Part shown: positions 27,883 through 48,968 of the stretch, one piece after another
Numbering within the stretch: the first letter of the stretch is position 1
Layout of the letters: every line of letters starts with the position of its first letter
Source: Planctomycetaceae bacterium
GTDB lineage: Bacteria; Planctomycetota; Planctomycetia; Pirellulales; Pirellulaceae
Length of the DNA: 64,000 bases
Assembly: GCA_021298315.1 (NCBI GenBank)
Contig: JAJTFC010000009.1
Coordinates: forward strand, 53,124-117,123
Direction of reading: 5' to 3'
Made by a program: the position numbers and the translations under genes
The notes under the pieces: model-generated
Databases searched by the model: none
Told to the model about the DNA's origin: nothing
What the model saw: the letters and a program-made list of their open reading frames with translations, nothing else

Positions 27883-30800
27883 ATGAGACCATTCAATACC
27901 AACAGACGATTTGGAAAATCGATCATCGGTTTCCTATTTGGATTATCAATCCATGCTTCGATCTTTGCCCAGTCCACTTCAGAATCGAATCCTACAAGTG
28001 GTCGGATCGCGATGATGAGCCCACAATTTCGTCCGATCATTCAATCGGGCGAATTTGTGTACGTAGCAAACACGCCAAATAACACCATCGATGTGATCGA
28101 TAAAAAGTCCAATCGGATCGAGCGCCAAATCCCAGTGGGGGTCGAACCTGTGGGGCTTGCAATCCGACCTGATGGCAAAGAACTTTGGGTGGCGAACCAC
28201 GTTTCCGATTCGGTTTCCATTATCGACATACAAACCGACAGTCCAAGTCGATTTCTGGTCGTTCATACAATCCAGGATTTCGATCCAAAGACCAAAGCGA
28301 CGCGATTCGATGAGCCGGTCGGTGTGGTGTTTGCCGATGACCATAAGGCTTACGTATCACTCTCGTCGGAAAATCAAGTTGCGGTCATCGATGTCGATTC
28401 GCGCGCGATCACCAAACGACTTCGGATCACCGCACAAGACCCTCGGGGCTTGATCGTTCGAAACGGTCGGCTGTATGTCATTCCCTTCGAGTCCAACAAC
28501 CAAACGCAACTTTCCGGAGGCAAAAAACAAGATATCGATGGCGATCTTGTCACCTTCGATGCTTGGGATCATTCGATCCAAAACAACAACGTGCTGTCGA
28601 TCGGCCATGTGGTCGATATCGTGAAAAATCCCAAAGTCCCAGATCGGGACCTTTTTGTTTTTGACACAACCAACGAGGAGTTGATCGAAACGGTTTCGAG
28701 TCTAGGTACCCTACTCTACGGAATCACCGCCGATTCCCAAGGCAATGTTTACGTCTCGCAAACCGATGCTCGCAACGATGTCAACGGCAGAGCTGGAACC
28801 AAGAAGCATGGCCTAGCGGAACTCGAAAACCGCCCGTTTTTCAATCGGATCACAAGGGTCGAAAAAGCTGGAATCAAGGATGGTATAAAACCCACGGTTA
28901 CTTGGTTCGATCTTGAACCCCTCCCTCCAGAGCACCCTACTTATCAGACTGCACAAGCGACTCCATTTGCCATCGAAATCAGCGACGATGATCGATACTT
29001 GTATTTGACGGCAGCTGGATCGGATGCGTTTTCGATCCTGGATGCTCAGTCAGGGAAACTCGTTGGGCGTTGCCAAGTTGGAGCCGTTCCCCAAGGAATC
29101 AGCATCGAGTACCGCGATGCAAAGCCGATATCTGCATGGGTGCTCAATGCTGCAGCCAATTCAGTCTCTCAAATCGATATTCAAGACCCTGCGCAACCGC
29201 GACTTTTGCAATCGATCCAACTAGAAGATCCTACCGACGCAGTCGTGAAAAACGGTCGCATCGCTTTTTCAACCGCCAAAGCATCGACGACAGGAACCTT
29301 TTCCTGCGCTAGCTGTCACCCCGATGGTCACACCGACCAATTGCTTTGGATTCTCAATACACCAATCGTTACCGGTGGGAATCAAATCATGCCTCGCTCG
29401 ACGATGCCTGTGCGAGGTCTGCGGGATACGGCTCCTTTTCATTGGGACGGTATCCCAGGGGATCCTTACGGTGGCATCCATAGCGGCAGCATCCGCACGA
29501 GTGTCAAACCCAATAGCGATATCCATAGTCCCGAGTCGACCACACGCCATCTAATCGATGGAGGCTTGGCGTCGACCATGGCCCGTGTCGGCGATACAAC
29601 CAAGAACGACGAGGGGAAAGCCGGATTGCTCAGCGCTCAAGAGCGAGATGGCATGGCAAAGTTTTTACTGAACGTCCCCTACCCTCCCGCCCAAAGACGC
29701 GCTTACGATAACCGACTCTCGAATCGGGCCGTACGCGGCTTCCAATTATTTCATGTCGATGGCGATCTGGATCCAAGCAAACCTAAACCGAACGTTTGCG
29801 GCGATTGCCATCGAATGCCACACTGGGTTAGCACCAACACACCCGGCACAGGCATGGATGCTCCCACTTGGAGAGGTGCTTACGACCGCTGGCTGATCTT
29901 GCCCCAAGGGCGACTCAATATCATCGATTTTGATTTCTTTAAGAATATCATCCAGGAAGGTGCTCCAGAGCGAAGTGTTTGGCAAATGTCTTGGGCAGGC
30001 AGACCTCGATTCGATCCGGTTTGGGAAATGGTTCTCGAAGGGAGCACCGGGTTTCCTGGAGCCTTCGCGCGACAAGTCACCTTCAATCGTCAAACGGCAA
30101 AATCCACTCAGACGATGGACTTGGCTCGAACGCTGATCGATGCAGCAAGACAAGGAACCATCGAACTCATAGGAACCGGACTGCGTCTCGATAGCCAGAA
30201 TGCTCGAGAATTAAGCGTCTTTTGGGACTCCGATTCGCCCGGTGGCTTGCGATTTATAAGCGAGGGCAAGTCTCAAGAGATCGACCTCGATGAAATCAGA
30301 AACCTTGCCGAGCAAGGGCAACTGGTGCTAACGCTCAGAGCCGAACTTGGATCACAGGCGATCGCTTCCTTGCCGCAACCGGAGCTTTGGACATCTGGGG
30401 ATATCCAGCAGCAACGCGGGCGTCAAGTCTTCCCGATTGCAAACGGCCAGGACAAGACCCTGAGGCTCTCTGGCCGGTACTTTGGGCCTGACGCTTGGAT
30501 CTTCGTCGATGGCGATAGGGTTTCCGGTACGATCGAGATTGATCAAGCCGATGGGATCGTTCTTAAACTCGACGAGTTGCCGCAAGCCGGCATGCATTTT
30601 TTGCAAGTTCAAGTCCCTCATGGATTCATGAGCAACGATTTCATCTTCTATGCGGCACAAGACCGAGCCGCTGCATTGGCGCTTCAGCAGAAGATCGATG
30701 AACCGCACAGTGAAAGCGCTGCGATCAAAAGAGCACTTGAAGACAAGAGTAAGATCAACGACCGAATGAATAGTGGCGCAACACCGCTATCCCAAGCTGC

Positions 30801-31128
30801 TCTATGGGGGCAATTGGCGTTGGTCAAGGAACTCCTCGGAAATGGTGCTGATCTCAGAGCGACCAACAGTGATGGGAACACACCCTTGCACTTGGCTGCC
30901 TTCATGTGCCACCAAGAGGTTGTCGAACTACTTATCGAGCACGGGGCAGAGATTGATCGCAAGAATAATCGTGGCGAAACACCATTGGATGTGGTCAACC
31001 AAGCTTGGACCGAAGAGCTTGCCGAGTTCTATCGTCAGTTGGGTGTATCGCTAAGTTTGCCAGTCGATACGATACGACTCCAAAAAGATAGGCCTAAAAT
31101 GGTTTCCATCTTGAGCGGTAGCAAGTAG
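27883..31128 (+). CDS. Beta-propeller (YVTN-like) / cytochrome c / ankyrin-repeat multidomain protein, secreted
   Basis: YVANTPNNTIDVIDKKSNRIERQIPVGVEPVGLAIRPDGKELWVANHVSDSVSIID; heme motifs CASCH and CGDCH; C-terminal ankyrin repeats GATPLSQAALWGQLALVKELLGNGADLRATNSDGNTPLHLAAFMCHQEVVELLIEHGAEIDRKNNRGETPLDV. Confidence 0.88.
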   Translation: MRPFNTNRRFGKSIIGFLFGLSIHASIFAQSTSESNPTSGRIAMMSPQFRPIIQSGEFVYVANTPNNTIDVIDKKSNRIERQIPVGVEPVGLAIRPDGKELWVANHVSDSVSIIDIQTDSPSRFLVVHTIQDFDPKTKATRFDEPVGVVFADDHKAYVSLSSENQVAVIDVDSRAITKRLRITAQDPRGLIVRNGRLYVIPFESNNQTQLSGGKKQDIDGDLVTFDAWDHSIQNNNVLSIGHVVDIVKNPKVPDRDLFVFDTTNEELIETVSSLGTLLYGITADSQGNVYVSQTDARNDVNGRAGTKKHGLAELENRPFFNRITRVEKAGIKDGIKPTVTWFDLEPLPPEHPTYQTAQATPFAIEISDDDRYLYLTAAGSDAFSILDAQSGKLVGRCQVGAVPQGISIEYRDAKPISAWVLNAAANSVSQIDIQDPAQPRLLQSIQLEDPTDAVVKNGRIAFSTAKASTTGTFSCASCHPDGHTDQLLWILNTPIVTGGNQIMPRSTMPVRGLRDTAPFHWDGIPGDPYGGIHSGSIRTSVKPNSDIHSPESTTRHLIDGGLASTMARVGDTTKNDEGKAGLLSAQERDGMAKFLLNVPYPPAQRRAYDNRLSNRAVRGFQLFHVDGDLDPSKPKPNVCGDCHRMPHWVSTNTPGTGMDAPTWRGAYDRWLILPQGRLNIIDFDFFKNIIQEGAPERSVWQMSWAGRPRFDPVWEMVLEGSTGFPGAFARQVTFNRQTAKSTQTMDLARTLIDAARQGTIELIGTGLRLDSQNARELSVFWDSDSPGGLRFISEGKSQEIDLDEIRNLAEQGQLVLTLRAELGSQAIASLPQPELWTSGDIQQQRGRQVFPIANGQDKTLRLSGRYFGPDAWIFVDGDRVSGTIEIDQADGIVLKLDELPQAGMHFLQVQVPHGFMSNDFIFYAAQDRAAALALQQKIDEPHSESAAIKRALEDKSKINDRMNSGATPLSQAALWGQLALVKELLGNGADLRATNSDGNTPLHLAAFMCHQEVVELLIEHGAEIDRKNNRGETPLDVVNQAWTEELAEFYRQLGVSLSLPVDTIRLQKDRPKMVSILSGSK

Positions 31129-34493: not shown

Positions 34494-36509
34494 ATGTCGG
34501 CCTTCATTAGGGTTTTGAGCGGTCCGGACAAAAAAGTCGAGTATCCGCTAAATCGAGCCCTCGAGAATTTGATCGGCCGTGGTATCGAATGCCACATTCA
34601 ACTCAACGACCCTAGCGCATCACGCCTTCACGCAAAATTCGTTTTCAAAGAAGAAGGCTGGCAATTGATCGACTCTGGCTCCAGAAATGGGACGATGGTC
34701 AATGGCTCAAAAATCGATTCAGCCCTACTTGTCGATGGTGCCAAAATTTCTATCGGTGATACCGAGATGCTGTTTACCGAATCTGGCATGCACGAGGTAG
34801 CGACAGTCGAGATCACCAGCATAGATTCGGTGATTATGTTAGGGGAGTACAGCGAACTGGCCGCCTTGGAATCCAAGGAATTCGGAGTTCAAGCATTTGA
34901 ATCGCTCAGGTCTGTAGGAAGAGAAAAAGAATTGTCGGCACTGCATTCCTTTACACTCCGTTGCAATGCCTTATCGACCGAGCAAGAGCTTGTGTCCGTC
35001 GCGATGGCCCTGCTGTCAGAGTGGACACAGGCTGATGCCGTGGCATTTTTGTTGTGCAATGAATATGGAGGATTGGATCTAGCAGGGCGACTTGCGGCGA
35101 ATCCTGAGTATAAACCCCCTATAAGCGATCACCTGACCGACTTGGTCACGCGTCAAAAACGGGCGGTCTGGGTTCAGCATGAAACTCCTCAATCCACGAA
35201 ATTGCCTGAATCTGAATTGGCGAAAAAACCGGGATTTGACGACGCGATTTGTGTCCCACTGATCGACAAAGGGAACACCATCGGAGCCTTGCACTTGTAT
35301 CGCGCAAGAGGCAAATTCAAACGCAGTGACTTTGATTTTGCCATCGCTGTAGCTAGCACTCTAGGGGTGTCGTTAGTTCGAGTACTATCGGCTCAAGTCA
35401 TGCAAGCTGACTTGGGGCGATTGCAGGACAAGAACGCTGCATTCGACGAACTGATCGGTGACAGTGAAGGGATGACCGAACTGAAACATCGGATCTGCCG
35501 TATCGCCAGAGCGTCGGGTTGCATTTTGATTCGAGGTGAAAGCGGTGCAGGCAAAGAGTTGGTCGCTCGCGCCATTCATAAGAATAGCCAACGAGCGTCT
35601 CGACCCATGCTCAGCGTCAATTGCGCTGCGATTCCGGATGAATTGATCGAGAGTCAACTCTTTGGTCACGTCAAAGGAGCATTCACTGGGGCAGATCGAG
35701 ATCACGTTGGATTTTTCCAACAAGCCAACAAAGGTACTCTTTTCCTCGACGAGGTCGGCGAACTGAACCTCGAGGGGCAAGCCAAGCTGCTTCGCATTTT
35801 GGAAGGTCACCCATTTCTACCCGTCGGAGCGACTAAAGAAGTGACGGTCGATGTGCGGGTATTGTCAGCTACCAACCGCGATTTACGAGAATTTGTCGCC
35901 GAGAAAAGATTTCGAGAAGATCTTTATTACCGAATTAGCGTCTTCGAATTGCAAATCCCACCATTGAGACAACGAGGACCTGATATCGACTTATTGGTGG
36001 AGTTTTTTCTCAACCACTTCAAAAATCAAAATGGACGACGCAATCTACGGATCAGCGATGAAGCGATGGAGGTTCTCCGAACTTACCGATGGCCTGGCAA
36101 CGTTCGACAACTGCGAAACGTCATCGATAGCGCTGTGGTCTTAGCCGACGGCAATGAAATTCTCCCACGAGACCTGTCTCTTAGAGATGCCCATTCGCTC
36201 AACGAGCCTTCTTCTGCTACTCCTCCAGTTGCAGGAACAGGAAGCACGCTTCCTCCAAGTGCCTCATCCAAATCACCGAAGGTAGGAGCGAACGCCTCCT
36301 CAGGGCCAAATAACGCGCAAAACGCCGACTTTGACACCCTAAGTGTTGATGTTTGGGAACATCGTTTGATTCAAGAGGCCCTGCGTCGAACCCAGGGGAA
36401 CATCCCAGCCGCCGCCGAACTCATGGGAATCTCCAGGGCAACTCTCTATCGGAAAATGGAAAAGGGCACTCCGGAAAACCCTCAGGTTCCACCAAATCCA
36501 GAGTCCTAA
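34494..36509 (+). CDS. FHA-GAF-sigma54-interaction-HTH(Fis) transcriptional activator
   Basis: FHA (GRGIECHIQLNDPSASRLHAKF...DSGSRNGTMVNG); AAA+ GESGAGKELVARAIH, GAFTGAD, GTLFLDEVGEL; C-terminal AAAELMGISRATLYRKM; probable ATG 34494 within ORF 34113..36509. Confidence 0.93.
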   Translation: MSAFIRVLSGPDKKVEYPLNRALENLIGRGIECHIQLNDPSASRLHAKFVFKEEGWQLIDSGSRNGTMVNGSKIDSALLVDGAKISIGDTEMLFTESGMHEVATVEITSIDSVIMLGEYSELAALESKEFGVQAFESLRSVGREKELSALHSFTLRCNALSTEQELVSVAMALLSEWTQADAVAFLLCNEYGGLDLAGRLAANPEYKPPISDHLTDLVTRQKRAVWVQHETPQSTKLPESELAKKPGFDDAICVPLIDKGNTIGALHLYRARGKFKRSDFDFAIAVASTLGVSLVRVLSAQVMQADLGRLQDKNAAFDELIGDSEGMTELKHRICRIARASGCILIRGESGAGKELVARAIHKNSQRASRPMLSVNCAAIPDELIESQLFGHVKGAFTGADRDHVGFFQQANKGTLFLDEVGELNLEGQAKLLRILEGHPFLPVGATKEVTVDVRVLSATNRDLREFVAEKRFREDLYYRISVFELQIPPLRQRGPDIDLLVEFFLNHFKNQNGRRNLRISDEAMEVLRTYRWPGNVRQLRNVIDSAVVLADGNEILPRDLSLRDAHSLNEPSSATPPVAGTGSTLPPSASSKSPKVGANASSGPNNAQNADFDTLSVDVWEHRLIQEALRRTQGNIPAAAELMGISRATLYRKMEKGTPENPQVPPNPES

Positions 36510-36680
36510 TCGTCAGCGATCCCCTTTTTGACTTTCCAAAGACCAAGAAAGCTAGCAAACATTTTTGTGTTATAGGTCGAAATCGCTTTAAAGTACCGCA
36601 GGTAGCTCCGACGAAACTGCTTGAGAGTGTAACGGTTGTAGCACTTTTCCGGTTGATGGTACTTTTGAGGTTGATCGCCA

Positions 36681-38552
36681 ATGGCAAGCGTACGCCAAAA
36701 TAGGTTCGTGCAACGTGCAAGAAAACCAGGCACGGTCAATGCAGTAACCTTCGGAGCATTCTTGACGACGGCCTTAATTGGACTTGATCATTGCCCAGGA
36801 CAATCCCCATCGCAATTTCCGGAACCTCAGGTTCCTCCTCGCCTTAGCAATCCTGAGATCGTCACTCCCGTGATACCCATGGTTCCTCCAAGGCCGATGG
36901 GGCCCCTTTCGGCACCTGAAAAGCCCAAGGATTTTGCTAATGTGATGGATCTCGTCGGTCCACTTTCCAACGTCGATGCGACGCTTGAATTGTTTGTTGG
37001 ACAGGCTAGAACCCTGACGCTCAAAAAACCGGTCTCTGAAGGCAAATCAGTGGGGGTCGTTGCGCTTGGAGATCCCTCGATTGCAGATTTTGAGATTCTT
37101 CCCAATCCACGAATGCTACGACTTTCTGGAAAACGCGCAGGCTTAACCGACCTTACGATCCTCTTCGGGGATGAATCGATCTTAACGCTTCAGGTCTTTG
37201 TTAAATACGATCTGGAGCTCCTTCGTGCAGAGATCAACCAGCGATTCCCCGATGCCAACATCAAAATCTCGCAATTGAGAGAAAACATCGTACTTGAGGG
37301 GCAGGTTCGCACAGGTGCCATGGCAAGTCAAATCATGGGCCTTGCGGAGGCTTGGCTCTCTCGAGGCTCGGTAAGTGCTGCAAGACCAATAGGTGCAAGC
37401 GGTGGCCAAGGGGCCGATAAAATGCAGTCGCTTGAAGATCAAGCAATGTCGGATCCGAATCCCATGGCCAATGATCTGACTCGCGAGGTTGCAGGTCTTG
37501 AGGTTGGCGGAGGCGCAGGTTCCGGTTCTCAAACGCCTAAGGGTGGTGTGATCAACCTTTTGAGGGTTCCAGGCACACAGCAAATAATGCTTCAGGTTCG
37601 CGTGGCTGAATTGAACCGGACAGGGATGAGGGAAGTCGGGGCGGATTGGATTTTTGGATCCGATAACGGAAATGTTGTAGGTACCAACATCAGCGGAAAC
37701 GTTGTGACCGCAAAAGGAACCATGGGTAGTACGTCCGACAACGGAATGGTAAACGGAGGTCTTAATTCTGCTGGAACTGGAAATGTACTTGGCGCCAACG
37801 GAACGGCTTTTGGAATCTTTCCTAGCGCCAATTTTGATGTGCTTCTTCGCATACTCAGAAAGAACGCCCTGTTGTCCATTCTGGCTGAACCCAATCTCGT
37901 GGCTATGAGTGGTCACGAAGCTAGTTTCTTGGCTGGTGGGCAGTTCCCTGTGCCAGTTGTCAGTGGATTGGGGGGACAAGTCTCCATTCAGTACAAAGAC
38001 TTTGGGGTGCAGTTGCGATTCACTCCAACAATTCTTGATGAGGATACGATTCGCCTGAATGTAGCACCCGAGGTCAGCACGATCGACGAAACGCTCGGTA
38101 CGACTCTTGTTCCTGGAGGTATCCCAACCCCAGGGATCAACACGCGCAAGGTCAATACGACCGTCGAAATGCGCGAGGGAGAAACCCTCGCCTTGGCCGG
38201 GTTGCTCGAAGTGGCCATCGATGCGCAGACAACACGAATCCCTGGCCTAGGAGACCTTCCTTACTTGGGCCCATTCTTTAGCAACACTTCTCAGCAACGT
38301 GTCGAGAAAGAACTTTTGGTGCTGGTAACTCCCTATTTTGTTGCTGCCTCACCGAACTGCGAAGATTTCGTATTACCTGGCCAAGACATCCAAGAACCTA
38401 ATGACTTAGAGTTTTATTTGCTTGGTCGAATTGAAGGAAAGACAGGTCGGTCGTTCAATACTGTCCAGTCCTGGGAAGATCCATGGAATTGTGTTGATCG
38501 AATAAAACTCGAACGGCAGTGCCTCCATGGCCCCGTAGGATTCTCAAGGTAA
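36681..38552 (+). CDS. cpaC: Tad/Flp pilus secretin (CpaC/RcpA-like)
   Basis: VGQARTLTLKKPVSEGKSVGVVALGDPSIADFEIL; secretin core LAEPNLVAMSGHEASFLAGGQFPVPV, VQLRFTPTIL, RKVNTTVEMREGETLALAGLL, GLGDLPYLGPFFSN, ELLVLVTPYFV. Confidence 0.92.
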   Translation: MASVRQNRFVQRARKPGTVNAVTFGAFLTTALIGLDHCPGQSPSQFPEPQVPPRLSNPEIVTPVIPMVPPRPMGPLSAPEKPKDFANVMDLVGPLSNVDATLELFVGQARTLTLKKPVSEGKSVGVVALGDPSIADFEILPNPRMLRLSGKRAGLTDLTILFGDESILTLQVFVKYDLELLRAEINQRFPDANIKISQLRENIVLEGQVRTGAMASQIMGLAEAWLSRGSVSAARPIGASGGQGADKMQSLEDQAMSDPNPMANDLTREVAGLEVGGGAGSGSQTPKGGVINLLRVPGTQQIMLQVRVAELNRTGMREVGADWIFGSDNGNVVGTNISGNVVTAKGTMGSTSDNGMVNGGLNSAGTGNVLGANGTAFGIFPSANFDVLLRILRKNALLSILAEPNLVAMSGHEASFLAGGQFPVPVVSGLGGQVSIQYKDFGVQLRFTPTILDEDTIRLNVAPEVSTIDETLGTTLVPGGIPTPGINTRKVNTTVEMREGETLALAGLLEVAIDAQTTRIPGLGDLPYLGPFFSNTSQQRVEKELLVLVTPYFVAASPNCEDFVLPGQDIQEPNDLEFYLLGRIEGKTGRSFNTVQSWEDPWNCVDRIKLERQCLHGPVGFSR

Positions 38553-38556
38553 ATCT

Positions 38557-39357
38557 ATGCTATTGGTATCTCAAATACGAAGGTCTTGCTTCCTGGTGCT
38601 ATCGTCCATCCATGTGTTGGGAACGCCTAGCATTATGTTTGGCCAAACTCCGAATTCAACCCAGGAACCGGCACCAACATCGCCGGATCTACAGGCGCCA
38701 GAGAGCGTCGCTAGAGACCAGAGCATCGGACGATGTGTTCCTGCGATGCCCGATTATCCCGCGTTTCAATCGTCCTACGGCAATCCCTATCGAATCATGG
38801 ATTGTCGAAACGGAGATTGCGAATCGACGAAAATAGAGCGATGGAAACGCAGCATGCAATCGAGCCATTGGGGCTACCCTGAGTATTTCCATCGCAACAC
38901 TTACGGACACGCACACCGAAACGCTTTTGCAAATAACATTCGCGATGGTGCTATCGAACGTGCCACGCTCTACCATCTGGATTTCTATCCTGAGGACTCG
39001 CCCTACGCACACATGCTGACTCCAAAAGGGCTCGAAAAATTGGAAAAAGCAATTTGCGTCAGCAACACTTTTGGCTCGCCATTGAAAGTAGAAAAATCCA
39101 ACAACCCAGAACTCAACGAAAAACGTCGCCAATGGCTCTCTGAACAGTCGACGGTCGCGCAAGCAGGAATCTTGCCCGATTCCATTTGGCTTACCGCTAA
39201 ACCGATGGGGATCCAAGCTACTGAGGCGATTCGTAATTATCAGCAAGGCATTTCGCCACGATCTGCAAACCAAGGAATGGCCAATCAAGGCATGGCCACT
39301 GGCTTCCCTGTCCTGCCTGGCGCCGGATCCTCGATGAACTCTCCTATCCCCCGCTAG
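38557..39357 (+). CDS. Hypothetical protein in Tad locus
   Basis: 266-aa ORF between secretin and TadD-like genes; signal-like N-terminus, short MANQGMANQGMA repeat. Confidence 0.55.
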   Translation: MLLVSQIRRSCFLVLSSIHVLGTPSIMFGQTPNSTQEPAPTSPDLQAPESVARDQSIGRCVPAMPDYPAFQSSYGNPYRIMDCRNGDCESTKIERWKRSMQSSHWGYPEYFHRNTYGHAHRNAFANNIRDGAIERATLYHLDFYPEDSPYAHMLTPKGLEKLEKAICVSNTFGSPLKVEKSNNPELNEKRRQWLSEQSTVAQAGILPDSIWLTAKPMGIQATEAIRNYQQGISPRSANQGMANQGMATGFPVLPGAGSSMNSPIPR

Positions 39358-39360
39358 AAC

Positions 39361-40104
39361 ATGACTGATCACCGCTCCATGCCAAACCGATTGCTGGTAG
39401 TTCTAGTTGCCGCTCAATTTATCTCCATGAGCGGGTGCAGTAGCTGGAAAGCTCTGAGCTTGAACTCCGACAGCAAATCCAAAGTCACCTCGCTAGACAA
39501 ACCTTCAAGCCTGTTTGATTCAAAACCCAACACGCGACAAGCACAACTGGATCTGGCGATTGTCGCGGCAGAGCAACACGAGGCAAAAGAAGAATATCGT
39601 GAAGCGATGAAGACTTACCAGAGTGTGCTTGAACTGGACAAAAAAAATAGCCTTGCACACCATCGCTTGGCGCTTCTTGCTTGCCGAATGTCGGCATCCA
39701 AACAAGCTCAGGAGCACTTCGAAGCCGCCTTGCGGCTTACACCCAAAAACACCGATTTGATCGCTGACTACGCCTACTGGTATTATCTTAATAAGCAAGA
39801 TTCCAATGCGACCGAACTGGTCGACCAAGGCCTCAAGAGAGAGCCTCAATCCGAGCGACTCCATGGAATCAAGGGGCTTCTTTTAACCCGAGAGCATCAG
39901 TGGGAACCAGCCGTCGATAGTTTCGTAAAATCCGGTTGCACGACTCAGCAAGCCTGGGCCAATATCGGACACGTGCTACTGCTCGAAGGAGACGTTCAAG
40001 CAGCTTCCTACTGGATCGAACATGCGGCGCAGGGCGAACAAGGTTCACTTGTCGCTAAAAAGACTCATAATGTCCTGCAAGCCTCTTACCCTGCTCCCAA
40101 CTAG
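39361..40104 (+). CDS. tadD: TPR lipoprotein, TadD-like
   Basis: Lipobox-like SMSGCSSW; TPRs AMKTYQSVLELDKKNSLAHHRLALLACR, AQEHFEAALRLTPKNTDLIADYAYWYYLN. Confidence 0.75.
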   Translation: MTDHRSMPNRLLVVLVAAQFISMSGCSSWKALSLNSDSKSKVTSLDKPSSLFDSKPNTRQAQLDLAIVAAEQHEAKEEYREAMKTYQSVLELDKKNSLAHHRLALLACRMSASKQAQEHFEAALRLTPKNTDLIADYAYWYYLNKQDSNATELVDQGLKREPQSERLHGIKGLLLTREHQWEPAVDSFVKSGCTTQQAWANIGHVLLLEGDVQAASYWIEHAAQGEQGSLVAKKTHNVLQASYPAPN

Positions 40105-40138
40105 AAAAGTTGCCAGCCTGAATCCCTCCGTTGATGCT

Positions 40139-40669
40139 CTAGGCCAACGATGCAATCATACGCATCGATTCAATGATCAGGACTCCAAGGGCTACCGGTA
40201 AGGCATAAGGGATGAGTCTCCGTCGTTTTTCGGACGAGTTAAATACCTCGTCTATCCCCGTTTGATGGTCTACCCCAGAAGCTTCACAGTCCGATGGCTC
40301 CACCGGGCTTGGACGATTCCGGTTGCTTACGAACCACAAAATAGAAATCACCCCTAGTATCATTCCACTGACCAAAAACACACCCAAGATCCCCTTGGGA
40401 CCATACCATGCCCCAAGTGCCGAAAGCCACTTGACGTCTCCTGCAGTCATTCCACCGATGACATAAAAGGGCATTAACAACAGGAATCCTACAAGTATAC
40501 CTAAGCATCCATGGACGATCCCATCCCAGCCATGAATGCAAGTATTCAAAGCAAGTCCAGCGACGAGCGTAATGACTACAGAGCGATTCGATATGCGGTA
40601 TTGACGCAGATCAGATTGCGCTACGAAGAGCACCAACGCCAGTAGGATCCAGGATCGGTATGAGTCCAT
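40139..40669 (-). CDS. Prepilin peptidase (A24 family, CpaA/TadV-like)
   Basis: SDLRQYRISNRSV (first catalytic Asp), GGMTAGDVKWLSALGAW (GxGD-like second Asp). Confidence 0.85.
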   Translation of the reverse strand: MDSYRSWILLALVLFVAQSDLRQYRISNRSVVITLVAGLALNTCIHGWDGIVHGCLGILVGFLLLMPFYVIGGMTAGDVKWLSALGAWYGPKGILGVFLVSGMILGVISILWFVSNRNRPSPVEPSDCEASGVDHQTGIDEVFNSSEKRRRLIPYALPVALGVLIIESMRMIASLA

Positions 40670-40677
40670 TTGGAATC

Positions 40678-42252
40678 CTATTCAACAAGGTAGACGGATT
40701 TGCCCATCGCCTTTGGCGAATTGTTGCCTGCAGTGACCTCCACAACCCCACTACCTGTTACCTTCATGTCCGATACGACGAACTGGGCATCGTATTTGCC
40801 TTGACCTGAAATACTGATCGGCATCCACTTCCCATAAAAAGTACCTGTGAGACTCGTTTCAGAGGTGTTTCCCGTGATTGACAGCACCTGGGTGTTGTGG
40901 CGACGCTGGTAGAACATCATCCCGTTGAAATCCTTGGAAATCGCTTTAGCCCCTGAATAAAGACTGGAATAGTTGTATTTAGTCGTATCGATGGGGCTTG
41001 TGTGAAAGGACGAATTGATGGCCGTGGAGCCAAATGTGGTGGTCGCCGCACTCGGCGGCGGGCTGGTAAGGTCAGTTGAATCAGGAAGCCCTGTCGTAGG
41101 ATTGAAATTCCCTCCGGTGTTATAGAACATGAGGCCCTCGGCAATCACCGTACCCCCCGTAAGCTTGAGAACATCTTGGTTGGCTTTTAGGGATCTTAAA
41201 ACGTAAATTCCAGGTACAAAATAGACCTTACCTCCGGTAATTGAGATGCTGTCATAAATACCTGGATAGAGGATCACGTCCCCCAAGGCTGCGCTATACA
41301 ATCCGCCAGCCACCGATTCATTGTTCGTGGCGCGATGATTCTGTCCGGTCGTATCGGAATTTAAACCCGTGACATTGTTGTTCGTCACCGACACGCTCCC
41401 TCTCAAACGGGCATCGAGTCCATTGCTTGCCATGGGGGTAACCACGTTGAGATAGGGGTCGGGTTCGGGTTGGACCTTGGTGTGCAGCGGAGGGACTTCG
41501 CCTGGAATCAATGGTTTAAACACGCTCGGGTTATCCACACCTCCAACAGAATCGATAATCCGAGCAAAAACGCCTTTTTCTGAATTGGGCGAACCGCCAG
41601 AAATCGCAACTCCATTGTTTCCATTATTGACGGCGTTGCCATACTCGTCGACTCCGCCACCCTCGGAATTGACGGCGATTCGACCGTTGACCTTTAATGC
41701 CGCCGACCCACTAACCGATAGACCAGGTCTCGCGTTCGGATTCAGTGTGATCACACCATCCTCGGGCAAAAAAGCCTCCGCACCAGCCACCGCTCGAGCC
41801 GTTACATCGATGTACGATTTGCTGAATGGAGAAAGACGTAGAAACAGAGTGTGGACTCTCTTTCGAGCGATGATCTCAAGATATCCTTCAACGTTAGCAT
41901 ACGGCCCAGAGGTAGGCGGCGAATGGATATCGGCTATCGTCGAATCGGTGTTGTTTAATGTCGCGAGATACTCCAAGGCCTTTGGATTCGATACGCTCGA
42001 CTGATTCCCCTCGATGATCTTCTTTCCACCAGCCAACGCCGCAGCATCCGCTGCGTTTTGGCAATGGCGCCATGTGTAATTGATCAAAGCCAGATCATAC
42101 ACCATGGCCAATATGCCGAAAAATAATGTTAAGCTAACCGTGAACATGGCGAGATAGGCTCCTCGTCGATTTCTTCGACGAGACCTTTTGGTCGCTCTCC
42201 GGATTCGAGGTGATAGATCGCTCTTCTTTGTCCAATTCAATTGAGACAGCAT
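40678..42252 (-). CDS. TadG-like pilus assembly protein
   Basis: RRNRRGAYLAMFTVSLTLFFGILAMVYDLALINYTWRHCQNAADAAALAGGK. Confidence 0.8.
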   Translation of the reverse strand: MLSQLNWTKKSDLSPRIRRATKRSRRRNRRGAYLAMFTVSLTLFFGILAMVYDLALINYTWRHCQNAADAAALAGGKKIIEGNQSSVSNPKALEYLATLNNTDSTIADIHSPPTSGPYANVEGYLEIIARKRVHTLFLRLSPFSKSYIDVTARAVAGAEAFLPEDGVITLNPNARPGLSVSGSAALKVNGRIAVNSEGGGVDEYGNAVNNGNNGVAISGGSPNSEKGVFARIIDSVGGVDNPSVFKPLIPGEVPPLHTKVQPEPDPYLNVVTPMASNGLDARLRGSVSVTNNNVTGLNSDTTGQNHRATNNESVAGGLYSAALGDVILYPGIYDSISITGGKVYFVPGIYVLRSLKANQDVLKLTGGTVIAEGLMFYNTGGNFNPTTGLPDSTDLTSPPPSAATTTFGSTAINSSFHTSPIDTTKYNYSSLYSGAKAISKDFNGMMFYQRRHNTQVLSITGNTSETSLTGTFYGKWMPISISGQGKYDAQFVVSDMKVTGSGVVEVTAGNNSPKAMGKSVYLVE

Positions 42253-42270
42253 GACCCGGGTTCCTTGTTC

Positions 42271-42780
42271 TCAGTGCGCGATCGCCATGGTTACGGTTGA
42301 TGAAATATTCGTCGTCAACGAAGTACCTCCCGTCGATGCAGAAAGGGTACCGTCAGGAAGGCTAGAACTGGAAATCGTCACTTCGACCCGATTCCCGCTG
42401 ATTCCACTGTTGCCTCCATCGGGCCAAGTCAATCGGTAGTAGATGCTCATAGGATGACCTGCGTTGTATTTGCTGGCCATCAGATCCCCAACCACACTAC
42501 CATCGCCAAAGGAGCCAGTTAGGGTCGTTGGGCCCCAAGGCCCAAGTTTCTCCGCCGCAGAACCATGAACAATGGCTTTTCTGGCCAAGAATTTTGCCAT
42601 CGCTGCATAACGCTGGGTTTGATAGATCCGGATACCCAACGTGAACACTGAAATCACAGTGATGATGTAGACTGGGAAAACCAAGGCAAACTCCAGTGAA
42701 ACAGCTCCCCAACGCCTTGGAAGCCCAACTCCTGGTTTGCGATTTTTCGGAACCGACGCGACGCAACACGGGTGTCTCAT
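42271..42780 (-). CDS. TadE/TadF-like pseudopilin
   Basis: RRWGAVSLEFALVFPVYIITVISVFTLGIRIYQTQRYA. Confidence 0.8.
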   Translation of the reverse strand: MRHPCCVASVPKNRKPGVGLPRRWGAVSLEFALVFPVYIITVISVFTLGIRIYQTQRYAAMAKFLARKAIVHGSAAEKLGPWGPTTLTGSFGDGSVVGDLMASKYNAGHPMSIYYRLTWPDGGNSGISGNRVEVTISSSSLPDGTLSASTGGTSLTTNISSTVTMAIAH

Positions 42781-42790
42781 CTTTGATTTC

Positions 42791-43267
42791 CTATCCAGCA
42801 GCCATCACGGAAACTTGACTCGATACGGTTGCCTGGCTGGGCAGTCCAGGCCAAACAAAATAGACTCGGTGCGTATACTCAACCTTTACGGTGATGCGTT
42901 TCTCCACGTTGGAAATCTGTTCAATAACCGGCGTATACACAACCAATGACGAAGGATCCACCCATGGGGAACCTTGCACCGAACTGATGGTCGCTTGATT
43001 GAGCCCTTGTTGCCATGACTGAAGGGATACATCGGTCACTGGATTAAATGCAGCGTATCGGCTTGCTGCACCCGCAGCATCGGCGACCACCAGTCGGAAG
43101 TAAGCGACTCGTGCGATATCCAAGGTTGCGATCGTTAGTAGCATTGTGACCGGGATCGTAATCGCAAACTCAAAGAGTGCGGCTCCTTTACGATATCTCC
43201 TTACACGCGAAATCGACCGTGGATTCGTCCTGAGGGAAACTGCGAATAAGACAGTTTTTTTTATCAT
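42791..43267 (-). CDS. TadE-like pseudopilin
   Basis: RYRKGAALFEFAITIPVTMLLTIATLDIARVAYFRLVVADAAGAASRYA. Confidence 0.82.
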   Translation of the reverse strand: MIKKTVLFAVSLRTNPRSISRVRRYRKGAALFEFAITIPVTMLLTIATLDIARVAYFRLVVADAAGAASRYAAFNPVTDVSLQSWQQGLNQATISSVQGSPWVDPSSLVVYTPVIEQISNVEKRITVKVEYTHRVYFVWPGLPSQATVSSQVSVMAAG

Positions 43268-44136
43268 TGCTTGGACAACTCCCGGAAAATCGTGATCGCT
43301 GCTGGTCCCATCGTTACGACAAAGAGTGCAGGCAGGATACAGATAACAGTTGGTATCAAAATCTTTGCCACAGCCTGCTGAGCGAGTGTCTCGGCAGCAT
43401 ACATCCGTTTTTGCCGCATGGAAGCGGCGAAAACTTCCATCGCGTCAGATAAGCTTGATCCATATTTTTCAGCTTGGACGATTACCGTAGACATACTACG
43501 CAACTCTTCCAAATCAAATCGATCTGCCAATGATCGCATCGATTCGCCCACACCGCGTCCCATGCGAGTCTCACGGTCAACGATCGCCAACTCTAAGGCT
43601 AACTCAGGATGAGCCGTTGCCAATTCCTGGGAAACCCTCGCTAGCGATGCGGGCAAACTCATTCCTGCCTCCAAGCAAATACTGAGAATATCCAAGGCAT
43701 CTGGGATAGCGCGTCGAATGAGTGTCTGACGCTTGGTCTTTAGCTTGTCGAGCACAAACGATGGGACAATAATCCCCGCGATCGCCACTGCACCCCCGAC
43801 CAAGATCGTCGTACTGAACGGGATTTTTGTAAACGATGAAACACCTACCGCGACCAAAAGTGGAATAACGAACGACAAGAGTTTCGATGCTGTGATCCAA
43901 AAAATAGCATTCCGACCATAAAAGCCCGCTTGAATTAATCGTTGACGCAATTGCTCCTGTTGATCGTTCTTTTCAATTCGCTTGCGAACATCCCGGTGGA
44001 ATTGGGACTCGCCGGGCTTGGGCGCATCGCTCTTCGATTTGTCAGTTGCATGCCCTTGGCCTGTCGATAAAAAGTAGAACAAGCCGACAGCTAATACAGT
44101 TGCAGTGGCGATGTAGAAAATTGCACTTAAGTCCAT
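43264..44136 (-). CDS. tadC: Tad inner-membrane protein TadC-like (GspF/T2SF domain)
   Basis: DALDILSICLEAGMSLPASLARVSQEL; LRSMSTVIVQAEKYGSSLSDAMEVFAASMRQKRMYAAETLAQQAVAKILIPTVICILPALFVV. Confidence 0.88.
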   Translation of the reverse strand: MDLSAIFYIATATVLAVGLFYFLSTGQGHATDKSKSDAPKPGESQFHRDVRKRIEKNDQQEQLRQRLIQAGFYGRNAIFWITASKLLSFVIPLLVAVGVSSFTKIPFSTTILVGGAVAIAGIIVPSFVLDKLKTKRQTLIRRAIPDALDILSICLEAGMSLPASLARVSQELATAHPELALELAIVDRETRMGRGVGESMRSLADRFDLEELRSMSTVIVQAEKYGSSLSDAMEVFAASMRQKRMYAAETLAQQAVAKILIPTVICILPALFVVTMGPAAITIFRELSKQ

Positions 44137-44147
44137 TTAGCACCTCG

Positions 44148-45113
44148 CTACTGGTCGAAATTGATGATGCGTTGCATCCAAAAATAACCGACTCCCATCC
44201 AAACCACTGTTCCGGCAATCAAAGGCTTGAATTCCAGCAAGGGGAGCAGGTAAGTTGGACTCAGAACCGATAGCATGCCGGCAAGACCGATCGGCAAGGC
44301 GATCATCATGTAGGCTTGCATCCTACCTTCAGCCGTTAGGGCCATCACCTTTTGTCTCATTTTCTCGCGATCTCGGATCACATGCGAGAGTTTGTTAAGC
44401 AGTTGAGATAAGTTGCCACCAGCTGTGGAGTTGATGGTCAATGCGACCACAAAAATCTTAACCTCCAAAAGCCCCGTCCTCTTGGCCAATTCCTTGAGAG
44501 ATGCCTCCGGGGTCAATCCGAGGTTCTGTTGTTCCCAGCAATAGGCGAACTCTTCTGCCAAAGGGGATGTAAACTCGTCGGCAATCGCTCGCATCGCTTG
44601 ACTGACCGTTTGACCCGATCGCAGAACCCTCGCGAGCATCTCATAGGCGTCAGGCAACTGAGACAACAGCTTTTGCTGACGCTGTTTTCTTTTAACTAGC
44701 ACGAATGCAAAGGGCAAAAAACCAGCGCCAAAACCACAAAGGATTCCAATCGATATGCTTTTCAACAGAAATCCTGACACGGCCGCAACCAGGAGTGTTA
44801 CGCAGGCAGCCATCGCGACAAACGCTTCAGGCCGTACGCCTACGATACCCGACTGGGCTACGATCAATTTCCACTTGGCCCACAACGAAGGATTTTCATA
44901 GTATTGAGCGATCTGCGATACCGCCTTTTGCTGAGCCTCCTTCGAGTCGAACTCGATTCGAGCCCGTTCGGCATTTCGCAGACGTATCTCCTCCTTCATC
45001 CGAGTCGCTTGATGCTTGCGACGATCCTCAATCACCTCAATCATGAAGTAATTCATGGCGGCAATGAAAGCGAAGCCCGCGAAGAATGCCATCGTAATGT
45101 ATACGATCAACAT
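44148..45113 (-). CDS. tadB: Tad inner-membrane protein TadB-like (T2SF domain)
   Basis: LPDAYEMLARVLRSGQTVSQAMRAIADEF; INSTAGGNLSQLLNKLSHVIRDREKMRQKVMALTAEGRMQAYMMIALPIGLAGMLSVLSPTY. Confidence 0.9.
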   Translation of the reverse strand: MLIVYITMAFFAGFAFIAAMNYFMIEVIEDRRKHQATRMKEEIRLRNAERARIEFDSKEAQQKAVSQIAQYYENPSLWAKWKLIVAQSGIVGVRPEAFVAMAACVTLLVAAVSGFLLKSISIGILCGFGAGFLPFAFVLVKRKQRQQKLLSQLPDAYEMLARVLRSGQTVSQAMRAIADEFTSPLAEEFAYCWEQQNLGLTPEASLKELAKRTGLLEVKIFVVALTINSTAGGNLSQLLNKLSHVIRDREKMRQKVMALTAEGRMQAYMMIALPIGLAGMLSVLSPTYLLPLLEFKPLIAGTVVWMGVGYFWMQRIINFDQ

Positions 45114-45115
45114 CT

Positions 45116-46594
45116 CTAGACTCTCCCTTTGCAGTCCATGAGCATCCGTCGCTCAAACAACTCTACCGGCACTTCTACACCGTAAGCCGACAAGCGGTCT
45201 AGGAGAACAGGCCGAATACCGGTGGCCCAAAACTGACCTTTCGTCACCAAATCCTCATTGAGCCCCATTTGCTTGAACTCAAAGATATCGTGCATGCTGA
45301 TGACATCACCTTCCATCCCGGTGATCTCAGAGATTCGAGTGATTTTTCGAACGCCCCCCGGAAGACGATTGACCTGTACGACCATATGCACCGCTGAGGC
45401 GACTTGTTTGCGAATGACCCAGATGGGCAAGTCGAATCCGGCCATACCCACCATCATCTCCAAACGGCTTACTGCATCCCGCGAGGTGTTGGCATGGATT
45501 GTCGTCAAACTACCCTCGTGGCCAGTATTCATCGCTTGCAACATGTCCAAGGCCTCTGGTCCCCGACACTCACCGATGATGATCCGATCTGGACGCATTC
45601 GAAGTGCATTTTTTACCAAATCCCGAGCTGTCACCGCCCCGTGCCCTTCCACATTTGCAACCCGAGTCTCCATCCGAACAACGTGCGGTTGTTGCAATCG
45701 AAGCTCTGCCGCATCCTCAATCGTCGCGACTCGCTCATACTCAGGGATGTATCCAGAAAGACAGTTCAATAGAGTCGTCTTTCCGCTACCTGTTCCTCCG
45801 GAAACAAGCATGTTGATACGGGCTTTGACACAAGCCGTTAGGAATTGAACCATTTCCGCCGTTATCGACTGGTTGGCGATCAATCGATCGGCCGTCAAAG
45901 GCTTGGAACCAAATCGACGAATCGATACCAAAGCTCCATCGAGTGCCAGAGGTGCAATCACGGCATTCAAACGGCTACCATCTGCCAATCTCGCATCAAC
46001 CATCGGAGTGGTTTCGTCGATTCTCCGTCCAACCTCAGCAACGATTCTCTGAATAATCTGAACCAAGTGCTCGTCATCATGAAAAATGATCGGCGTTCGA
46101 AACAGCCTCCCTTGCCGTTCAACGTAGATCATCTTGGGACCATTGATCATGATGTCCGAGACCAACGGATCGGCTCTCAATGCTTCCAGTGGCCCAAGGC
46201 CGAAAACTTCGTCCATTACCTCGTCTATCAAGGTCGAGTGAGTAACGTCCAAGCCTGCCAAATCCGCTGATCCACAAATCGACTCCGCTTGACGCCGAAC
46301 CTCGACTCGCAACTTTGAAGGATCCCACCTGGCCATCGAGCCGATGTCCAGATTGCTGATCACCTTTTGGTGCAACTGGCGTTTCAATGCAACAAACTTT
46401 GGATTCGCTTTTGGTTCCAGAGTCTTCAGCCAGGCTTGAGTCTCATCCAGAGGCTTGACAGCAACCGTTGGCTGAGTCGGATTCGCAGTCTCTGCCGACG
46501 GATCGGAATCCTTTGATAAATCACCTTGGGGATCTGTCGCTGAGGAACTACCTACAGTCTTTTGATTTCGGTTTGTCCCTTTGAACCAATTCAT
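45116..46594 (-). CDS. tadA: Tad secretion ATPase (CpaF/TadA)
   Basis: LVSGGTGSGKTTLLNCLSGYIPEYERVATIEDAAELRLQQPHVVRMETR; NALRMRPDRIIIGECRGPEALDMLQAMNTGHEGSLTTIHAN. Confidence 0.97.
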   Translation of the reverse strand: MNWFKGTNRNQKTVGSSSATDPQGDLSKDSDPSAETANPTQPTVAVKPLDETQAWLKTLEPKANPKFVALKRQLHQKVISNLDIGSMARWDPSKLRVEVRRQAESICGSADLAGLDVTHSTLIDEVMDEVFGLGPLEALRADPLVSDIMINGPKMIYVERQGRLFRTPIIFHDDEHLVQIIQRIVAEVGRRIDETTPMVDARLADGSRLNAVIAPLALDGALVSIRRFGSKPLTADRLIANQSITAEMVQFLTACVKARINMLVSGGTGSGKTTLLNCLSGYIPEYERVATIEDAAELRLQQPHVVRMETRVANVEGHGAVTARDLVKNALRMRPDRIIIGECRGPEALDMLQAMNTGHEGSLTTIHANTSRDAVSRLEMMVGMAGFDLPIWVIRKQVASAVHMVVQVNRLPGGVRKITRISEITGMEGDVISMHDIFEFKQMGLNEDLVTKGQFWATGIRPVLLDRLSAYGVEVPVELFERRMLMDCKGRV

Positions 46595-46622
46595 TCAGAT
46601 ACCCCTAAGTTTTTAAACGATT

Positions 46623-47621
46623 CTACTTGGATTTCGTCCGAACGGGTACCACCCCCACTCGTGATCCACGAATCGTTCGAATGGCGGTAAATCCAGGTGG
46701 ACGTGTATTGGCCTCCGCGAAACTCGAAAGCAACGCTTGCATCTCCTCAACAGTCATCGACTCTTCAGCCGGTGTCGTAGGGTAGATCTCCTCTTCCACT
46801 AGCTCCACAGTCCCCTGGCTATCTTTGGCTCCATCGGCTGTAGAGTCCGACACTCCTTGGTTATTCGAAATCTTGCGCAGAGCGCTCAGATCCGTCGCAT
46901 CGCCAAGATCTGCCTCGAGTATCTCCTCGCTCATTGTAATCGTTTGGTCCTCGGGGTTCCTGAGTGAAAGGGATAATACCCCCTCTTTCTGCCCCAATCC
47001 TAACACCGCTGCTTGCTTGGGCGTTACCATCAACGTTACGGTCGATGCCTTCGATTCGTTCTTGTCGCTTGCACCCCCTGCCCTATTGGCTCCAGTGCTA
47101 TCGACAATCCTGTCAACGGCCATCACCTCTACGTTTTGTAGAAGGGTCTCTGAAACCCCCGAATCAGAACCACCCCCGCCCGGATTGGACTTCGTCAGCA
47201 ATACGTCCACCTTGTCTCCCACATTGATCAATCCCGAAACCCGATTCGCAGAACTCGCTGCGGTGATGCTATATGCCCTCAAACCCGCAGGGATCAGAGT
47301 CGCCAGTCCCGCTTTTGCTCCAACACTAGTTATTTTATTGCTCATGACGTACTCGCCCTCGTACATCGCGACTGTGGCAACGCGACCAATCACTTCCTCG
47401 AGCGATTGAGGCATCGATTTGTGAGCAAACTCGGCAGGTATCTGGCGAGCCTCAACGTGCTCTTCCTGAATCTTGTACCCCCGACCTATTGGCTTTTTGA
47501 CAGTAATGACCGTGGTCAACTCCTTTGCCACTTTGTTCGAATGAATCTGGGTAACCCCTACGATCGCAGATACCCCGCTTGCAATTGCAAGAAGAAAAAC
47601 CAGCCAAGTTCTCAACGTCAT
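46623..47621 (-). CDS. cpaB: Flp pilus assembly protein CpaB/RcpC
   Basis: VKKPIGRGYKIQEEHVEARQIPAEF; GLRAYSITAASSANRVSGLINVGDKVDVLLT; TVTLMVTPKQAAVLGLGQKEGVLSLSLRNPED. Confidence 0.92.
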   Translation of the reverse strand: MTLRTWLVFLLAIASGVSAIVGVTQIHSNKVAKELTTVITVKKPIGRGYKIQEEHVEARQIPAEFAHKSMPQSLEEVIGRVATVAMYEGEYVMSNKITSVGAKAGLATLIPAGLRAYSITAASSANRVSGLINVGDKVDVLLTKSNPGGGGSDSGVSETLLQNVEVMAVDRIVDSTGANRAGGASDKNESKASTVTLMVTPKQAAVLGLGQKEGVLSLSLRNPEDQTITMSEEILEADLGDATDLSALRKISNNQGVSDSTADGAKDSQGTVELVEEEIYPTTPAEESMTVEEMQALLSSFAEANTRPPGFTAIRTIRGSRVGVVPVRTKSK

Positions 47622-47687
47622 AACCCACCTACCTTGCCCCTAAAAACAAATCGATCAAAACCCTGATAACTCGACACGACCAAGCCA

Positions 47688-47728
47688 AAAGGGGCGGCTC
47701 GACGCCTTAGCATCGACCGCCCCTTCCC
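47688..47728 (-). terminator. Hairpin between flp copy 1 and cpaB (terminator/attenuator)
   Basis: AAGGGGCGG..TCGA...TCGA.CCGCCCCTT inverted repeat just downstream of flp1 on the minus strand. Confidence 0.6.
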
Positions 47729-47753
47729 CTCCCAAGCAGATTCAGAAATCTAG

Positions 47754-47936
47754 CTAGCTAGGAATTTTGGTCGACGCGTTTTCGAACAAGGAGGTCAAGT
47801 TGCCTCCAAGCAGTGTCATCGCTGCGACGGCAACGATGGCGATAAGGCCAACGAGCAAACCGTATTCAAGCATGGTTGCTCCACGCTCATCACGAACAAA
47901 ACGACCAACAACCTTCGATACTAGTGCGCTATACAT
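47754..47936 (-). CDS. flp: Flp/Fap-type pilin, copy 1
   Basis: MYSALVSKVVGRFVRDERG|ATMLEYGLLVGLIAIVAVAAMTLLGG: class IVb prepilin motif; ATG at 47936 inside ORF up to 47999. Confidence 0.92.
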   Translation of the reverse strand: MYSALVSKVVGRFVRDERGATMLEYGLLVGLIAIVAVAAMTLLGGNLTSLFENASTKIPS

Positions 47937-48022
47937 GAATCTGACCCTTACAGGAATCTTCCGCTCCGACTCGTGCGCCTCAACCAATCCGCTGTCCACT
48001 TGTCTTTACGGAAGGTGCTAGA

Positions 48023-48038
48023 TGCGATTAGTGTGCCA
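48023..48038 (-). promoter_or_regulatory. Sigma54-type promoter upstream of flp copy 1
   Basis: Minus strand TGGCACACTAATCGCA: GG-N10-GC match to the -24/-12 consensus. Confidence 0.75.
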
Positions 48039-48309
48039 AACTCACCGCAGGCTGAGGGTTTTTGTTTGAGAATTAAATCCATTTCCTGATTTGGTCGAAA
48101 AACACAGTAAATTCGCGACCGATTTTTATACCCAAAACACTCGACGCAAGACTAAACCGATCCACTGTCCTGGAAATCGCATTTCGAATCTTAGAACGCA
48201 ATTCCAATCTGAGATGGCTGATACAACTGGTTAATCCAGCTCGGGACAATCAGAATCAGAATCAGAACCCAGAGCACCGACCTCCAACAAACGCGCCGAT
48301 GAATGAACG

Positions 48310-48356
48310 AAAAAAGGGTGAGTGATACCTTCTTCGGTATCGCCCACCCTTTTGGT
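48310..48356 (-). terminator. Hairpin terminator downstream of flp copy 2
   Basis: AAAAGGGTGaGTGATACC-TTCTTC-GGTATCgCCCACCCTTTT long inverted repeat between the two flp genes. Confidence 0.7.
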
Positions 48357-48384
48357 GATTTTCCCTTGTTGCCGCTTCTGCAGG

Positions 48385-48567
48385 CTAGCTAGGAATTTTG
48401 GTCGACGCGTTTTCGAACAAGGAGGTCAAGTTGCCTCCAAGCAATGTCATCGCTGCGACGGCAACGATGGCAATAAGGCCAACGAGCAAACCGTATTCAA
48501 GCATGGTTGCTCCACGCTCATCACGAACAAAACGACCAACAACCTTCGATACTAGTGCGCTATACAT
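48385..48567 (-). CDS. flp: Flp/Fap-type pilin, copy 2 (protein identical to copy 1 from the ATG)
   Basis: Same 60-aa product as 47754..47936; two synonymous nucleotide differences noted. Confidence 0.92.
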   Translation of the reverse strand: MYSALVSKVVGRFVRDERGATMLEYGLLVGLIAIVAVAAMTLLGGNLTSLFENASTKIPS

Positions 48568-48653
48568 GAATCTGACCCTTACATGAATCTTCCGCTCCGA
48601 CTCGTGCGCCTCAACCAATCCGCTGTCCACTTGTCTTTACGGAAGGTGGTATA

Positions 48654-48669
48654 TGCGATTGGTGTGCCA
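48654..48669 (-). promoter_or_regulatory. Sigma54-type promoter upstream of flp copy 2
   Basis: Minus strand TGGCACACCAATCGCA: GG-N10-GC. Confidence 0.75.
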
Positions 48670-48968
48670 AAACCGCTGGCCGAAGATTTTATTTGTTCGA
48701 AAATAAATCCGGTTCGCCGATTTACCAAGAAAAACACTGGAGATTTGTGATGGGTTTTTTGGTGCTGAAACTCTCGCCGATCGCTTGAACAGATATCAAG
48801 TCCTGCATTTGCGTCTCGAATCTTGGGATGCTATTCCAATCTGAGATGGCTGATACAACCGTCGACCGCCTTGCACCTTGATCCCAACCACCATTGCGCT
48901 TGATGAAGCTCTTTGATGGTCTTGGTTTGACTCAATTCGATGAGCATCTCCTGACGCACAATACGACC

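Follow-up and report, generated by a model that had tools for sequence, protein, structure and literature searches.

The closest described counterpart of the locus presented here is found in Desulfovibrio vulgaris, where the sigma-54-dependent regulator DVU2114 has been mapped to the Tad pilin operon DORF39640-DVU2116 and to a pilus assembly operon (PMC3333781, PMC4641369). PilR-type sigma-54 control of pilA in Pseudomonas, Geobacter and Myxococcus is cited in the former report (PMC3333781). In Caulobacter, pilA is controlled by CtrA (PMC11264516). A broad survey of sigma-54 that includes Planctomycetia mentions neither flp nor Tad (PMC12316311).

Here, we analyse a Tad locus in a 64-kb stretch of DNA from a Pirellula-group planctomycete (64,000 nucleotides; hereafter, the window), part of a draft genome of 5.3 Mb in 205 contigs. 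Its pilin has its nearest named relatives in Pirellula and other planctomycete metagenome genomes. From the comparisons detailed below, we consider it likely that the two flp genes of this locus are transcribed as separate units from sigma-54 promoters, and that they are activated by the product of the activator gene in the same locus, with possible gating by its FHA and GAF domains. Each duplicated flp would form a unit of its own, in which a sigma-54 promoter is followed by about 76 nt of leader, the pilin gene of 60 codons and a hairpin resembling a terminator. RNA polymerase carrying RpoN would be held at the -24/-12 element pending arrival of the activator; the latter would bind upstream by its Fis-type helix-turn-helix (HTH) and remodel the complex with the GAFTGA loop of its AAA+ domain, with the ATPase presumably gated by its N-terminal FHA and GAF parts. 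We propose that, through such separate units, pilin synthesis is uncoupled from the assembly machinery and made signal-dependent. The sequences themselves show the promoters with their selective conservation, the Tad locus, the domain make-up of the activator, its homologues next to flp in relatives and an intact RpoN; from these we infer action of this activator at these promoters and a signal carried by FHA/GAF.

Organisation of the Tad locus

The Tad locus (34494-48567) looks complete, including flp, prepilin peptidase, cpaB, secretin, cpaF, tadB, tadC and tadE; its arrangement over the two strands is given in Table 1. The two flp genes, whose encoded pilins are identical, are part of a 300-nt unit (promoter, leader and flp gene) that is tandemly duplicated with 95% identity and a spacing of 631. 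A stem-loop and a T run follow each flp, which, as judged from predicted folds, probably makes each copy a transcription unit by itself; a simple terminator scan listed neither of the two 3′ stem-loops. RpoN is encoded in a single copy in the genome, intact and full length, with region I and the RpoN box.

Table 1. Features of the Tad locus, in coordinates of the window
Feature	Position	Strand	Basis and remarks
FHA-GAF-AAA+(GAFTGA)-Fis HTH sigma-54 activator, proposed activator of flp	34494..36509	+	Pfam, domain comparison, motif positions
cpaC secretin, 266-aa protein without Pfam match, TPR (TadD-like) protein	36681..40104	+	codirectional with activator; matching genes in relatives
tadV, tadG-like, two tadE-like, tadC, tadB, cpaF, cpaB	40139..47621	-	
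Stem-loop then TTTT between flp1 and cpaB, probably a terminator or attenuator	47686..47725	-	fold -41.9 kcal/mol
flp1, Flp/Fap pilin, 60 aa	47754..47936	-	PF04964 5e-14; protein identical to flp2 product
flp1 conserved 5′ leader	47951..48021	-	predicted hairpin about 48014-47958, beginning at predicted transcript start
flp1 -24/-12 sigma-54 promoter (predicted), TGGCACACTAATCGCA	48023..48038	-	predicted +1 near 48012; conserved in relatives
Block common to both flp upstream regions, flp1 copy	48179..48227	-	candidate enhancer region; 88% over 49 nt
Stem-loop then T run 3′ of flp2, probably a terminator that would set flp2 apart from flp1	48312..48353	-	inverted repeat; fold -32.3 kcal/mol
flp2, Flp/Fap pilin, 60 aa	48385..48567	-	PF04964 5e-14
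flp2 conserved 5′ leader	48582..48652	-	predicted hairpin about 48645-48589
flp2 -24/-12 sigma-54 promoter (predicted), TGGCACACCAATCGCA	48654..48669	-	predicted +1 near 48643; conserved in relatives
Block common to both flp upstream regions, flp2 copy	48811..48859	-	candidate enhancer region; 88% over 49 nt

Further flp copies occur in the same genome (G000), both at contig ends (L148, 1-170 of contig C41; L149, 1-190 of contig C9), each with the sigma-54 site TGGCATACCCTTTGCA and the leader. The G000 contigs break within the repeated pilin gene, and several draft genomes in the comparison have contigs interrupted in flp repeats; Tad genes were not found within the first 4 kb of C9. Elsewhere in the window, two further proteins are encoded: one of 650 aa (5483-7435, minus strand) that has HEAT-like repeats and ends in a HINT (pretoxin-type) domain, and one of 1081 aa (27883-31128, plus strand) that is beta-propeller-like and, weakly, cytochrome c peroxidase-like, with C-terminal ankyrin repeats.

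The activator, its possible input and its probable target

The initial annotation described gene 34494..36509 as a sigma-54 activator with a GAFTGA loop and N-terminal FHA and GAF domains. Pfam and the motif positions agree: the domains FHA, GAF, Sigma54_activat, AAA lid and HTH_8 (5e-14; a C-terminal Fis-type HTH) are identified, GAFTGA is located at residue 395 and the Walker motifs are present. As to its position next to the pilus genes, the activator indeed belongs to the same locus, where it adjoins cpaC, but it is about 11.5 kb away from flp, at the opposite end.

In seven other genomes, an activator gene immediately precedes flp on the same strand. Four of these genomes (G010, G012, G016 and G017) are of the same genus as the window, and their flp-linked protein is homologous to the window activator (that of G016 is divided between two contigs whose overlap is identical). 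The other three (G033, G035 and G041) represent other genera, one of them in another family, and their flp-linked activator is more distant, with a different N-terminal region. In G012, a short ORF that specifies little beyond an activator-type Fis HTH, without AAA+ domain, is extant directly before flp with its own sigma-54 site (L080, about 4180-4400 of contig C255); its product could be a competitor or a remnant.

The FHA and GAF domains may carry the signal to which the window activator responds. One refinement of the proposed scheme, more than a full rival to it, is that phosphothreonine bound by FHA is the main control on the activator. The FHA match of the window protein (1.5e-16) includes the conserved Arg, Ser and Asn contacts for phosphothreonine, with the motifs GRG, SRLH and NGT intact, and the G016 protein retains SREH and NGT. 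These contacts are, however, altered in the flp-linked proteins of G017, G012 and, truncated, G010 (NG to DG, EG or SG; SRxH to SSIH or ALVH), though promoter and gene order are kept, and in the more distant loci the N-terminal region of the flp-linked activator is of another kind. We therefore regard this refinement as possible, if somewhat doubtful.

The GAF domain is no more constant: it accompanies FHA in the window activator and in G016, whereas the flp-linked activators of G017 and G012, both complete, have FHA and, by domain comparison, no GAF. No protein kinase was found among the neighbouring genes scanned. With GAF missing or the FHA contacts altered in relatives, sigma-54 control of flp looks conserved and its signal input does not. 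The initial annotation's proposal of phosphothreonine- and GAF-signal-controlled sigma-54 expression of the pilin thus separates into two parts. For sigma-54 control by an activator of the locus, conservation and gene neighbourhood provide strong support. A phosphothreonine or GAF signal may be involved: the contacts in the window protein speak for it, the variation among relatives and the kinase scan do not. Phosphothreonine control is possible in the window species, and its generalisation is not warranted.

In its HTH, the window activator shares 67-77% identity with the genus-level flp-linked activators as against 54-60% with same-genus FHA-GAF paralogues, so that it probably recognises the same DNA as the flp-linked group; the AAA+ domains do not separate the two groups, being 70-76% identical to either in full-length comparisons. 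This bears on the idea that the sigma-54 promoters are genuine but activated by another enhancer-binding protein, such as the conserved FHA-GAF paralogue encoded on contig C48, with the Tad-locus activator serving cpaC or something else. The genome specifies ten other strong Sigma54_activat domains, any of which might act at flp, related FHA-GAF proteins occur in nearly all relatives, and the distance to flp noted above is in line with another activator. Yet, it is not with the paralogue that the HTH of the window activator groups, and the paralogue is present in most relatives while their flps without a linked activator have no sigma-54 sites. We hold action of another activator at the flp promoters to be unlikely.

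Two predicted sigma-54 promoters and their conservation

The two promoter 16-mers, each of which starts 102 nt before the ATG of its flp gene, fit GG-N10-GC on the minus strand, as the initial annotation had it. Compared with the wider context TGGCAC-N5-TTGCW, with GG and GC 10 nt apart, their sole deviation is TCGC for TTGC in the -12 box, a form common to most members of the genus. They are the two top-scoring sites in the window for a sigma-54 matrix that approximates the published consensus (16.0 versus 15.2 for the next site), and the only exact matches to TGGCACNNNNNTNGCA in its 64 kb. None of 200 shuffles of the 290-nt flp upstream stretch scored as high. The near-identity of the two promoters, although real, is by itself weak proof: it is explained first by the tandem duplication of the 300-nt unit, so that the pair amounts to little more than one observation within the genome. 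Further upstream, shared 8-mers (one mismatch allowed) were only modestly in excess over shuffles, and we claim no enhancer motif.

We fetched flp loci from 60 relatives and scored the 290 nt before each flp. A close group, class A, was delimited on the basis of pilin similarity (three copies were assigned to it by locus), irrespective of whether an activator was present; as it includes paralogous copies, some of its members are not independent of each other. At p<=0.01, a site is found before 13 of the 16 class A flps, always between -76 and -120, and the opposite strand scores no better than background. The three that miss this threshold comprise two further tandem pilins in distant loci (L087 and L089) and a truncated copy, L085. 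The latter is a flp remnant in the source genome (about 7528-7686 of L085; contig C50) that retains part of the leader and a visible sigma-54-like site, TGGTACACGGTTCGCA, which fell outside the scanned range.

Among the flps of other planctomycete Tad loci, 4 of 82 reach p<=0.05, equal to chance expectation. When genomes are compared, the -24/-12 element is kept, and the 100 nt preceding it are hardly more similar than shuffled sequence, which argues for selective conservation of the promoter and not for common ancestry of the whole stretch. The two flp promoters could be alike only through duplication of the flp unit, with an incidental sigma-54 match and a sigma-70-family promoter in use, and the 95% identity of the duplicated units and the TCGC box would agree with this, but retention of the element between diverged flanks in orthologues, the strong contrast with loci devoid of an activator and a search of the flp region in which no sigma-70-like promoter was found make it highly improbable.

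The association of activator and promoter is not without exception. In two loci of other relatives (class B; L195 and L167), a sigma-54 activator is encoded nearby, and the 290-nt upstream scan found no clear sigma-54 site before flp. A class-wide sample of 40 further loci was meant as an independent validation of this linkage; it held no directly adjacent activators and, therefore, mainly extends the negative set. The exception is G214, one of three loci in the sample with a strong site (score 12 or more): it has an activator beside cpaC and a strong sigma-54 site before flp, the window's own layout. In the other two, G249 and G469, no activator was found within the fetched DNA.

A conserved 5′ leader

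Downstream of the promoter, a stretch of about 60 nt is conserved, with the predicted transcript start at its beginning. In the window, the predicted hairpin has a folding energy of -21.5 kcal/mol (z -2.1 and -1.5). A covariance model run against 241 family genomes found the leader only before the flp copies of four genomes of the genus, plus one weak match (G205; E 0.05), which we judged spurious, with no flp found in the fetched contig. The leaders of G017 and of the G012 C511 locus are unrelated to it.

No Rfam family matched up to E=1, and a CsrA site was discarded as the GGA motifs are not kept in G010. The outer stem cannot be taken as a proven covarying helix: five pairs are changed on both sides, but 62% of cells pair, the same count was reached by 55 of 500 shuffles, and the C41 copy breaks two outer-stem pairs. 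The inner helix is almost invariant and hence says little either way on structure. We consider the leader an undescribed, genus-specific conserved 5′ element and possibly a new structured RNA. A more far-reaching reading, which we put forward tentatively, is that flp transcripts begin with an undescribed structured RNA confined to the genus (core GAC-NAGTG ... GCGCA-NNGTC) that would exert post-transcriptional control of pilin output, in addition to an activator whose sensor end would have been exchanged between species while its target stayed unchanged.

Comparison with known systems

DVU2114 resembles the window activator in that it is sigma-54-dependent, has GAFTGA and acts on Tad-type pilin genes. 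Since its targets are Tad pilin genes, a Tad pilin under sigma-54 is nothing new, and the statement that such regulation is not commonly described for Tad pili has to be toned down in view of this precedent (PMC3333781, PMC4641369). DVU2114 is a two-component response regulator, whereas the proposed regulator in the window is of the one-component type, with FHA and GAF; there, moreover, the pilin gene is present in two copies with a promoter each, and the leader is conserved. The PilR/pilA systems likewise place a pilin gene under sigma-54 and a dedicated activator, but they are two-component systems, and their pilins are not Tad pilins but Type IVa or related, in contrast to the combination of Tad/Flp and FHA-GAF in the window.

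Tad pilin transcription under a dedicated regulator is also a trait of CtrA/pilA and of the tad locus of P. aeruginosa, which is controlled by PprB, as Bernard et al. reportedly found in 2009 (cited in PMC3333781); to our knowledge, neither uses sigma-54. Amongst planctomycetes, the sigma-54 activators (enhancer-binding proteins) of Pirellula sp. strain 1 are said to have been surveyed in silico by Studholme and Dixon in 2004 (cited in PMC12316311). The locus described here provides a specific, comparatively supported case in Planctomycetota of a surface pilus under sigma-54 with a locus-encoded activator, and it leads to the prediction that Tad loci with an activator in the locus are sigma-54-controlled and others are not. 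Comparison of activators that have a common DNA-binding domain and different sensor ends (FHA-GAF, FHA alone or, in distant loci, unrelated N-termini) would reveal how inputs change in a switch of this kind. What is new is the FHA/GAF one-component activator in the locus, its exchangeable sensor ends and the genus-specific conserved 5′ leader, which together constitute a variant of a known scheme.
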